NCBI GenBank assembly: GCA_002842755.1
Contig: PHDU01000026.1
Location: forward strand, 1 to 42,266
Reading direction: 5' to 3'
From: Bacteroidetes bacterium HGW-Bacteroidetes-1
GTDB taxonomy: Bacteria; Bacteroidota; Bacteroidia; Bacteroidales; F082
DNA length: 42,266 nucleotides
Shown here: positions 40,390 through 42,266 of the stretch, piece by piece
Numbering within the stretch: the stretch's first letter is position 1
Layout of the letters: each line of letters opens with the position of its first letter
Program-made: the position numbers and the translations under genes
The notes under the pieces: model-generated
Told to the model about the DNA's origin: nothing
Databases searched by the model: none
Seen by the model: the letters and a program-made list of their open reading frames with translations, nothing else

Positions 40390-40463
40390 GGGCCTATAGC
40401 TCAGTTGGTTAGAGCAACTGACTCATAATCAGTAGGTCCCAGGTTCAAGTCCTGGTGGGCCCA
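40390..40463 (+). tRNA. tRNA with anticodon CAU, probably tRNA-Ile2 (lysidine-modified)
   Basis: 74 nt. Acceptor GGGCCTA (40390-40396) pairs with TGGGCCC (40456-40462) and discriminator A is at 40463. The anticodon loop CTCATAA gives CAT. The body resembles Bacteroidota tRNA-Ile (GGGCCTATAGCTCAG start). C4-G69 and C5-G68 pairs, determinants for the lysidine synthase TilS, favour tRNA-Ile2 over elongator tRNA-Met. CCA is not encoded. A terminator follows directly. A damaged partial copy lies about 110 bp downstream. Confidence 0.93.
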
Positions 40464-40469
40464 CAACAC

Positions 40470-40500
40470 AAAAAAGACTGTTTAGTTAGCAGTCTTTTTT
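40470..40500. terminator. Intrinsic terminator after the CAU tRNA
   Basis: AAAAAAGACTG (40470-40480) pairs with CAGTCTTTTTT (40490-40500) around the 9-nt loop TTTAGTTAG. It directly follows the tRNA. Confidence 0.85.
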
Positions 40501-40509
40501 ACTTTAACG

Positions 40510-40538
40510 ATCAAAACAGCAACTGACTCTGCCGAAAG
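40510..40538 (+). repeat. 29-bp direct repeat, copy 1
   Basis: A 29-bp exact direct repeat with 40921-40949. It begins ATCAAAACAG, includes the tRNA-derived AGCAACTGACTC block, and ends TGCCGAAAG. Copy 1 is the start of the tRNA-derived element upstream of the GIY-YIG gene. The two copies differ in the bases flanking the repeat. Confidence 0.9.
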
Positions 40539-40588
40539 CTTTCGGCACAGTAGGTCCCAGGTTCATTCCGAAAGTGATCGGAAGGTGG
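40518..40588 (+). pseudogene. Damaged partial copy of the CAU tRNA, with two 18-bp inverted-repeat insertions
   Basis: Blocks AGCAACTGACTC (40518-40529), CAGTAGGTCCCAGGTTCA (40548-40565) and GGTGG (40584-40588) match the intact tRNA at 40413-40424, 40430-40447 and 40454-40458, in order. Between them the anticodon-loop ATAAT is replaced by TGCCGAAAGCTTTCGGCA (40530-40547, a perfect palindrome). The T-loop AGTCCT is replaced by TTCCGAAAGTGATCGGAA (40566-40583, inverted arms of 6 bp). The two inserts share 13 of 18 positions. The 5' half of the tRNA is absent, so this cannot make a functional tRNA. Confidence 0.85.
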
Positions 40589-40610
40589 TCTGCCTATCAA
40601 AAAGAACGTG

Positions 40611-40633
40611 CTGTTTATCAAAGCAGTTTTTTT
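40611..40633 (+). terminator. Hairpin with T-run before the GIY-YIG gene
   Basis: CTGTTT (40611-40616) pairs with AAA(G)CAG (40620-40626, one bulge) around ATC, followed by seven T. It resembles the terminator after the intact tRNA (both have TGTTTA, AGCAG and a T-run), suggesting tRNA and terminator were copied together. Confidence 0.5.
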
Positions 40634-40644
40634 ATTCAAAACTT

Positions 40645-40937
40645 ATGAAAGCATGTTGTTACATTCTTTATAGCAAACAGACAGGAAAATATTATACAGG
40701 TGCCTGCCATGATGATTTGGCTGAAAGAAAAAACATAATCTTCATGAATATGGCAAACATCGTTATACAGCCACTGCAAGCGATTGGGAACTATATCTTG
40801 AGCTGCCAGCAAAGGATTACCCGCATGCAATTCGCCTTGAACGCCTGATCAAATCGATGAAAAGCAGTAAATACATTGAAAACCTGAAAAAATATCCCGA
40901 ACTTATTCAAAAAATCATCAATCAAAACAGCAACTGA
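40645..40937 (+). pseudogene. GIY-YIG endonuclease gene (URI-type), frameshifted
   Basis: The ATG at 40645 gives MKACCYILYSKQTGKYYTG, a GIY-YIG N-terminus (YIL and YYTG in place of GIY and YIG, then CHDDLAER). After LAER the original frame is lost. Shifting by one base at the A6 tract 40728-40733 restores a normal continuation: KHNLHEYGKHRYTATASD, then WELYLELPAKDYPHAIRLER and LIKSMKSSKYIENLKK, to a TGA at 40935-40937. Total about 97 residues, typical for the small URI/YhbQ-like family. The intact C-terminal half suggests a recent lesion or a sequencing error in the homopolymer. Its last codons lie inside copy 2 of the direct repeat. Confidence 0.85.
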
Positions 40938-40949
40938 CTCTGCCGAAAG
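40921..40949 (+). repeat. 29-bp direct repeat, copy 2
   Basis: Exact match to 40510-40538, 411 bp downstream. It supplies the last codons (INQNSN and stop) of the GIY-YIG gene, then breaks off in the middle of the palindrome, so only its left half (TGCCGAAAG) is present here. Confidence 0.9.
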
Positions 40950-41020
40950 GTCGATTTATTTTACATTTGGGCAACTTATTCCAAACTTGAAGCCTCTAAC
41001 TGTTAGTGATTAAAAGTAAC

Positions 41021-41544
41021 ATGGCATACCATTCCGAAAAAGATATTGTTGCAGGTTGTTTAAAAAATAACCGGATAGCTCAAAAGGCGCTGTGTATACA
41101 TACAAAACCCGCATGAACACCCTTGCCTACAGTGTTACTGGTAATTTCGACGATGCCAATGACATGCTTCAGGAAGGCTTTCTACAAATTTTTTGAAAGT
41201 TGGAAACTTTTAATGGGGAAGCAAAATAAAGTTCATGAATCTATACCATTATTGCACGCATAGCTATTCGTAAAATTAAGAGCCAGATATTTTTTGAAGA
41301 TATCGAAACCATCGATTCAGCTACAATTATAGATTGGGGAACACTGATCGATATCGATTACCTCGAAAAATCTATTGCGAATCTTCCGGTAGGCTATCGA
41401 ACAATTTTTACTTTATACGAAATTGAAGGTTTCAAACATCGTGAAATAGCCGAACTGATCGAAATCTCAGGAAACACATCCAAATCTCAGCTCTTTAAAG
41501 CAAAAAAAATGTTGCGTGAAACCCTGAATACCCTTGAAAAATGA
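41021..41544 (+). pseudogene. ECF sigma-70 factor pseudogene
   Basis: A degraded RNA polymerase sigma-70 factor of the ECF type, about 174 codons. ATG 41021 gives MAYHSEKDIVAGCLKNNRIA (region 2.1-like). A frameshift near 41090-41100 leads to YKTRMNTLAYSVTGNFDDAN and DMLQEGFLQIF (region 2.2-2.3). In-frame stops follow at 41194, 41227 and 41236. The frame then continues IYTIIARIAIRKIKSQIF, and after 41341 region 4: YLEKSIANLPVGYRTIFTLY, EIEGFKHREIAELIEISGNT, SKSQLFKAKKMLRETL, to TGA at 41542. Four lesions mean it cannot be functional. Its stop overlaps the start of the next gene by ATGA. Confidence 0.88.
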
Positions 41545-42179
41545 GCGAATCGAACCATAAAACCTTACTTAAATCCCTAAAGCTATTACAACCTCATTCG
41601 CCTGATAACAATGTTTGGACAAAAATCCTAACGCTTCTGAATGATGAAATGAAAATCAAGAGCATATCACAGCAGAAAACAAAAAATCCCTGAAACATGT
41701 CCACTGACAATCAATAACTACTTTGGCGAAATCTTCGTAAAAACACAACAGCGCCAGTTACGATCATAAGCGAGTTCGCCAAAATTGAGCTGCTCCATAC
41801 AAAGAGTAAAATACAGATAACTTCCAGTTTTGGTGACATCTCAGGAACAGAAATCATCGGAGGAATCACCATAAACTCCAACCGATCAAATCTTACCCTT
41901 GAAAGTGTTTCAGGGACACTTGCCATAAATGCCTCATTGGCTAAAATCACGCTTAAGAAATGTTCCAACATCTGTAATATTCAAATCGAAGCCGAAAAAT
42001 CCGAGATCATGATTGATTCAGACTCTACGTTCAGCTATTCATTTGACATTAAAAATGTCGAGTTCGAACCGCCAGCCTGGATGAAATTAGATCCTCCGAT
42101 TAAGAATGAAAATACGACAAAGGTCCATTTTACCAATTTGGCTAACAGCCCACGCATTAAAATAAAAGGTTCTGTTTGA
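41541..42179 (+). pseudogene. Frameshifted partner of the ECF sigma gene (possibly anti-sigma or adhesin-like)
   Basis: The ATG at 41541 overlaps the sigma stop. The reading MSESNHKTLLKSLKLLQPHS continues to a TGA at 41691. One frame over, PETCPLTINNYFGEIFVKTQ (41689-41748) continues the protein. A second shift near 41750 returns to the first frame: TAPVTIISEFAKIELLHTKS, then DISGTEIIGGITINSNRSNL, and the open frame from 41937 ending KGSV at 42177. The last part is beta-strand rich with repeated short hydrophobic patterns, like bacterial DUF4097-type beta-helix proteins. Genes in this position after ECF sigma factors are often regulators. The function call is an inference. Confidence 0.65.
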
Positions 42180-42266
42180 TAATATTGTAGGTTAATCAAT
42201 TTTTTGTACCGTAATTGAATTTCTCTATAGTTTTCTAATGTTTCAGAATTATCAGCAACAGCTTTA
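42180..42266. other. Right-edge stretch without supported gene
   Basis: 87 bp of AT-rich DNA. On the - strand one frame is open from the window edge (KAVADNSETLENYREIQLRY), but it runs back into the region of the decayed + strand gene and stops at about 42050. I do not call a gene. Confidence 0.3.

Follow-up and report, generated by a model that had tools for sequence, protein, structure and literature searches.

The 42,266-nt contig from Bacteroidetes bacterium HGW-Bacteroidetes-1 analysed here, referred to in its entirety as the window, carries near its end an intact tRNA gene, a frameshifted GIY-YIG nuclease gene and displaced fragments of that tRNA in which hairpins stand in place of tRNA sequence. 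We consider this locus to be probably (roughly 60%) a decayed member of a Bacteroidota-wide family of very small, homing-type GIY-YIG mobile units. Each unit would consist of a single-domain GIY-YIG gene of about 95 codons, typically with an intact tRNA on one side and a displaced fragment of the same tRNA on the other, the junction in the displaced fragment being overwritten by a hairpin.

In the window, the intact tRNA lies on the forward strand at 40390-40464 (Rfam RF00005, 76.4 bits); ARAGORN reads its anticodon as CAT and calls it Met, while hallmarks of its sequence lead us to take it as probably tRNA-Ile2 of the lysidine type. A terminator-like stem followed by a T-run can be read 3' of the gene at 40467-40502. 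As an earlier note on this DNA had described, with coordinates and sequence that agree with ours, blocks of the CAU tRNA recur in order on the same strand at 40518-40588 with two 18-nt inserts between them. Sequence comparison identified the left arm of this displaced copy as tRNA positions 24-35 (AGCAACTGACTC, 40518-40529), which is followed by hairpin 1 (TGCCGAAAGCTTTCGGCA, 40530-40547) in place of ATAAT (tRNA 36-40), a middle arm corresponding to tRNA 41-58 (CAGTAGGTCCCAGGTTCA, 40548-40565), hairpin 2 (TTCCGAAAGTGATCGGAA, 40566-40583) in place of AGTCCT (tRNA 59-64), and a remnant, GGTGG (tRNA 65-69, 40584-40588), which alone is too short to beat chance. The inserts are identical at 13 of 18 positions, as had been reported. 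Hairpin 1 is the perfect palindrome that it was said to be, symmetric at 18 of 18 positions, and hairpin 2 is an imperfect inverted repeat, symmetric at 12 of 18. The inserts had been placed exactly at tRNA loops; hairpin 1 does overlap the anticodon loop but extends beyond it, taking the place of anticodon bases two and three, of two further loop bases and of the base that opens the 3' stem (cloverleaf positions were assigned by eye for the window tRNA and by script for the tRNAs of relatives). Even when three mismatches were allowed, each 18-mer occurred once in the window, against chance expectations of 0.01 and 0.06. Folding of 40505-40640 gave a structure only mildly better than those of shuffled sequences (z -1.9, with 9 of 200 shuffles as good). 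Absent from that note is a second, truncated displaced copy on the forward strand beyond the nuclease gene (40921-40949), whose 29 nt are identical to 40510-40538 and which ends after half of hairpin 1.

The nuclease gene itself spans 40645-40937 on the forward strand and is frameshifted, its N-terminal part lying in the frame of 40645 and its C-terminal part (approximately 40725-40937) in another frame. The family profile described below matches 40728-40922 with an E-value of 1.3e-24, covering the C-terminal part, and the TGA stop codon (40935-40937) falls inside the second tRNA-derived arm. A search of the window's own genome with PF01541 at a threshold of 0.001 missed the frameshifted gene and returned only two other genes, whose open frames have 625 and 493 codons; at the DNA level, that genome holds a single copy of the unit. 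Judged from its reading frames, the unit in the window has either decayed or been mis-assembled: the frameshifts in the nuclease and in the frames that follow it reflect decay or consensus errors. From 40645 to 42180 the nuclease gene and the following frames, presumably sigma-factor-like as named by eye, are each split over several frames near homopolymer runs, at the end of the contig.

Better-preserved versions of the gene were found in relatives. In three intact proteins of 94-98 residues PF01541 scored above its cut-off and was the only domain found, and NCBIfam returned no match for any of the three. The AlphaFold2 model has a pLDDT of 94.4, and the nearest solved structures by sequence and by fold are UPF0213 protein BH0048, plant HIGLE and Slx1 (1zg2, 7cq2, 6sei and 7wme), with weak Foldseek E-values (best 5.9e-3). 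The title of the Slx1 PDB entry refers to the processing of branched DNA, and we take HIGLE to act on branched DNA also. Membership of the GIY-YIG superfamily is thus indicated by PF01541 in the relatives, by the family profile on the window gene and by the fold matches. The accessible text of a paper on this superfamily mentions tRNA three times, in no case with regard to gene neighbours (PMC1564403). When viral contigs were scanned once, none of the 185 pattern matches was confirmed as a relative.

A DNA search of 198 related genomes returned 46 matches at an E-value of 0.01, many of them weak, and nine genomes besides the window's own matched at 1e-6 or better (G003, G004, G006, G007, G008, G032, G041, G049 and G053). 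Congeners of the window genome contain intact GIY-YIG genes between hairpin-bearing tRNA copies. G006 holds two such genes alternating with copies that bear one or both hairpins; G004 holds two genes alternating with copies that have a hairpin at the anticodon site and a normal T-arm; and G003 holds two double-hairpin copies without a gene. The copies of G004 bear the anticodon-stem variant of G004 itself, which indicates that the fragments follow the local tRNA. In G041, from another genus, CCCCGATAGCTATCGGGG and CCCCGATAGTGATCGGGA occupy the same two tRNA sites; a comparison of its downstream flank with possible empty sites found no match in seven other genomes. In a survey of nine genomes of the genus, the tRNA site is occupied in six (G000, G003, G004, G006, G007 and G008) and empty, with the tRNA present and no unit, in three (G001, G002 and G005). 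The proposal in the earlier note of a tRNA-derived element that was remodelled and is linked to a GIY-YIG nuclease is supported by its recurrence in relatives with inserts at the same tRNA positions; the outcome that the note had named as fatal to a mobile palindrome, 18-mers found nowhere else and unmatched insertions in relatives, was looked for and the results went against it.

The architecture also recurs well beyond the genus. With a profile built from an alignment of nine nuclease genes, one scan of a genome collection yielded 254 confirmed relatives, of which the best 80 were analysed. By record title, their hosts are nearly all Bacteroidota, mainly Flavobacteriales, Bacteroidales, Cytophagales and Chitinophagales, while three loci are labelled otherwise (one Rickettsiales, one Chlorobiota and one 'Algicola' MAG), and six of the 80 matched nuclease frames contain stops. 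A tRNA gene lies within 1.5 kb of the nuclease in 62 of the 80 loci and within 600 bp in 59, and in none of the 62 is there an opposite-strand tRNA within 1.5 kb. These neighbours comprise Met/Ile2, Leu, Phe, Asn and Thr tRNAs. Partial tRNA copies of at least 12 nt were detected in 49 of the 62 loci, compared with none when reversed tRNAs were used as a control; a count based on 9-nt blocks (60/62) was withdrawn, because reversed tRNAs matched in 34 of 62 and the number is therefore not meaningful. When nothing was assumed about the insert, an insert-bearing tRNA copy was recovered from 42 of the 62 loci (control 0/62). This unbiased test gave 77 inserts, 54 of them exactly 18 nt long and 64 with a clean stem of at least six pairs; by reading, the other 13 were the motif with extra bases (nine), degenerate versions (three) and one, at locus L078, without a hairpin. 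Once the motif was assumed and a tRNA panel added, 128 hairpin inserts of 18 nt could be placed in 60 of the 80 loci, while no motif-bearing tRNA copy was found in the remaining 20, some of which lie at contig ends. Among 62 distinct placements relative to the locus's own tRNA, which are not independent of one another, 58 take in bases of a loop (D-, anticodon-, variable or T-loop) and four do not. Within the hairpin, positions 1/18, 2/17 and 7/12 change together on both sides and the inner four positions are the least often paired; positions 3-6 and 13-16 are uninformative here, as the search pattern fixed them.

Analysis of the 60 hairpin loci revealed two main layouts that are mirror images of one another. 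In the first (17 loci, with eight more that have copies on both sides), the order is intact tRNA, gene, short arm, hairpin and the rest of the tRNA; in the second (14 loci), it is the 5' part of the tRNA, hairpin, short arm, gene and intact tRNA. Eleven loci have no intact tRNA in the stretch and two are arranged otherwise, while in eight the gene has both the intact tRNA and the sole hairpin copy in its vicinity on the upstream side, an arrangement that a simple two-sided layout would not produce. It is the displaced copy that is altered by the hairpin, while an intact tRNA stays beside it. The gene-proximal arm is short, with a median of 13 nt (range 7-21) in 34 loci and of 10 nt in 15 loci of the mirror layout, and in 30 of the 34 the stop codon of the nuclease lies at or past the start of this arm. 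Arrays also occur; one, at locus L099 (1733-3328) of Niabella hibiscisoli, has nine tRNA copies with a hairpin at the variable-loop site around one matched nuclease gene, most of them approximately 165 bp apart.

The nuclease tree suggests that clades and tRNAs belong together. The tRNA type requires eight changes on the tree over 73 rows, compared with a mean of 28.8 and a minimum of 23 in 300 shuffles, whereas for host order the number is 25 over 60 rows (in shuffles, a mean of 35.0 and a minimum of 28); some of the tRNA labels were taken from the tRNA copy, seven of the 80 rows were dropped, host order could be assigned from record titles for 60 of the 80, and the tree rests on 96 columns with 39 of 76 inner branches left open. 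As the tRNA type changes far less often than host order, a nuclease tends to keep its tRNA across host orders. A combined label of tRNA and hairpin position requires 19 changes over 60 rows (shuffled mean 35.2), and hairpin position is thus less faithful than tRNA type; in the Phe clade it varies between the D-loop, the anticodon and the T-loop. Traces of movement are also visible in the displaced arms: compared with the intact tRNA beside it, the arm of L097 has four differences and that of L084 five. The T-stem changes in both loci are compensated, such that pairing is kept, suggesting that each arm derives from a different functional tRNA. The displaced arm of L084 is one base from the tRNA of locus L112, and in the L084 array a second, different GIY-YIG unit and an arm of native type follow.

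These observations are consistent with a mechanism in which the tRNA gene would be the target of the nuclease. The enzyme would cut or nick a particular tRNA gene at a favoured site within or beside a loop, and repair from a unit-bearing copy would bring in the unit along with a tRNA end by which the tRNA is restored. The end pushed aside would stay behind, and its hairpin would preserve the stem-loop while removing the sequence that the nuclease recognizes, perhaps preventing it from cutting again; tandem arrays would arise by recombination between copies. That the rebuilt, intact tRNA leaves the presumed target in the host counts against the homing reading.

A second sample extended both the range of tRNAs and the range of hairpins. 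At an E-value of 1e-12 or better, the nuclease family is present in 69 of 296 genomes of the phylum that are at least 90% complete, and 40 regions were picked near the top of the list of matching places, with one for each cluster so far as could be judged. A same-strand tRNA lies within 600 bp in 35 of the 40 loci, and in the other five no tRNA was found in the fetched region. Insert-bearing copies passed the strict test in 18 loci, and eight more, at Ala, Lys, Val and Pro tRNAs, have the complete anticodon arm replaced by a different hairpin. Additional target tRNAs in this sample are Asp, Ala, Lys, Pro, Val, Gly and Ser. The hairpins range from 14 to 21 nt, those of the Asp group having the form TCCCGA-tip-TCGGGA with a tip of varying length, and their sequence varies in other clades as well. 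These findings suggest that what is conserved is a stem-loop at the junction, often with a TCCCGA/TCGGGA base. The varying tip length would point to recognition of a hairpin, or to a mere need to stay folded, instead of the binding of a fixed double-stranded palindrome. A fixed 18-bp double-stranded palindrome had been entertained as the conserved object and was rejected in view of the 14-21 nt lengths, the asymmetric tips and the exchanged anticodon arms. In tRNA-Lys copies at loci L251 and L256 the swapped anticodon arm differs in its stem, and at L251 its loop keeps the run CTTTT of the intact tRNA.

The rival that fares best, although we regard it as unlikely, holds that the hairpins are an independent, dispersed palindromic repeat of Bacteroidota that was captured in duplicated tRNA fragments, the GIY-YIG gene being a passenger or a separate element. 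In its favour, TCCCGATAGCTATCGGGA is dispersed at 40, 6, 5, 4 and 2 sites in five genomes, with no hits for a reversed-pattern control in any of them, and the core of the palindrome is present in 65 of the 296 phylum genomes. A GIY-YIG gene lies within 700 bp of three of 94 dispersed sites, leaving 91 without one, and a tRNA within 700 bp of five; at least two of the 94 were counted twice through overlapping loci, and these counts are a rough background for the tRNA adjacency seen in 35 of 40 loci. The core is only somewhat commoner in genomes with the nuclease (22/69) than in others (43/227), and this weak association suggests that the palindrome in its dispersed form and the hairpins in tRNA copies may be recognized by a common factor without being one element. 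The ten genomes in which the nuclease match reaches 80 bits or more all hold the core, a figure that we do not rely on as the threshold was set post hoc and some of the palindromes lie inside units. Against capture of a single repeat stand the insertion at the same tRNA positions across host orders, the tracking of nuclease clade by tRNA, and the several clades with hairpins of other length or sequence, which one repeat would not be expected to produce.

The same data bear on the suggestion in the earlier note of a tiny mobile palindrome that prefers loops. A dispersed repeat does exist in some relatives, with 40 sites in Leptobacterium flavescens and 32 and 28 in two members of the family (control 0 in each), but the window's own genome is not enriched, with two sites for the core against one for the control. 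A preference for loops found no support, as flanking inverted repeats scored at least 6 at 6 of 89 dispersed sites compared with 10.9% in controls. A single mobile 18-mer is likewise not supported, since in other clades the inserts in tRNA copies differ in length (14-21 nt) and in sequence and it is the hairpin that is kept. Direct-repeat flanks scored at least 8 at 17 of 89 sites (control 4.5%), although these flanks are partly of low complexity. The forty copies in Leptobacterium flavescens (L151-L190) have the sequence YCCCGATAGCTATCGGGR, and many lie inside short direct repeats of the attgagtacaaagtattgag type. G003 and G006 carry a separate multi-copy repeat, gtttgggYaRatgg...TGCCGAAAGCTTTCGGCA...caaaaggac (L202, L203, L206, L207 and L208), with no tRNA within 700 bp.

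Less probable again is a cellular or defence device, in which the arm-swapped, tRNA-like copies would be transcribed decoys or guides and the GIY-YIG protein a structure-specific nuclease whose substrate is either tRNA or invading DNA with attachment sites in tRNA genes. Retention of the stem-loop while its sequence changes would fit such a role, as would long arrays with few nuclease genes, such as the nine copies and single matched gene of L099, and the presence among the nearest solved folds of Slx1. Most copies, however, lack one tRNA end and hence could form no cloverleaf, and the patchy presence of the units within a genus and their sometimes broken genes (the six frames with stops and the window gene) are as in selfish DNA. 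It is very unlikely that the units are remnants of ordinary tRNA-integrating islands of the tyrosine recombinase type, with the tRNA fragments as attachment repeats. Such islands follow the same logic, rebuilding an intact tRNA and leaving a displaced fragment at the far side, but the units read here are a few hundred bases long with the GIY-YIG gene as their only evident gene, no recombinase is evident in them, and the displaced fragments hold hairpins inside the tRNA sequence in place of the junction region. Chance or an assembly artefact, suggested by the fact that the window is a whole contig with frameshifts at its end, can be set aside as the same structure is found in many unrelated assemblies, including isolate and complete genomes.

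The reading as homing-type GIY-YIG units has its closest precedent in phage T6, whose GIY-YIG nuclease SegB cuts inside tRNA genes and drives tandem amplification of a tRNA locus (PMC13096335). Like the loci described here, SegB and the T4-type freestanding GIY-YIG homing nucleases have the GIY-YIG gene beside tRNA genes, and by our reading the SegB motif RAWTSGAAC gives a T-loop-like sequence when reverse-complemented, yet SegB is a phage gene and the accessible part of that source describes neither hairpin-swapped tRNA copies nor a preference for a single tRNA (PMC13096335). The units differ from SegB in that they occur in bacterial genomes, are single-domain and tRNA-specific by clade, and leave hairpin-marked copies. 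As for freestanding homing endonucleases in general, the gene sits at its own presumptive target with occupied (six) and empty (three) alleles, whereas a separate DNA-binding module, usual in homing endonucleases without strictly defining them, is absent from the 98-residue protein, in which PF01541 is the only domain. The small UPF0213 and Slx1-like GIY-YIG proteins, which give the best solved-structure matches, are housekeeping proteins or of unknown role. REP sequences and their RAYT transposases likewise combine short palindromic repeats with a nuclease gene, in arrays with and without the gene. RAYTs are HUH enzymes, however, and in the three proteins scanned the only domain was GIY-YIG and not TnpA_REP; here, moreover, the repeat sits inside a fragment of a tRNA. 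Mitochondrial palindromic or double-hairpin elements are small palindromes in genomes sometimes rich in GIY-YIG genes, but they are organellar, and the accessible text on them shows no link to the replacement of tRNA arms.

A search of the open-licence literature, by titles and the beginnings of abstracts, found no description of such units among the matches listed, and the palindrome string is absent from the open-licence literature searched. We therefore put forward only tentatively, at somewhat less than even odds, that these single-domain GIY-YIG units constitute a minimal class of mobile element new to science, each lineage using one tRNA gene, spreading through Bacteroidota, rebuilding the tRNA, and swapping the junction arm of the displaced copy for a structure-preserving hairpin that would serve as an immunity tag or as a structure recognized by the nuclease. 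If so, tRNA arms would be interchangeable parts of a mobile element, and many small 'GIY-YIG family proteins' of Bacteroidota would be selfish units with predictable targets instead of stray repair enzymes. The target tRNA and the position attacked could be read from the hairpin-marked copy beside each gene, and an otherwise puzzling class of tRNA pseudogenes would be accounted for. Dozens of natural trios of nuclease, target and decoy would become available for asking how so small a GIY-YIG domain locates its site, and these would bear on how tRNA genes host homing units without loss and on why the stem-loop is retained.

Two further sets of loci deserve mention. At L067 (approximately 950-1085, genome G023), a tRNA copy with the D-loop hairpin TCCCGATAGCAATCGGGA lies directly upstream of an intact CAU tRNA, and a shortened nuclease-like frame comes after that tRNA. 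At L145 (position 2542) and L257, a hairpin or palindrome lies beside tRNA-Gly and tRNA-Ser fragments near other tRNAs, which suggests that these may be remnants of units at further tRNAs.
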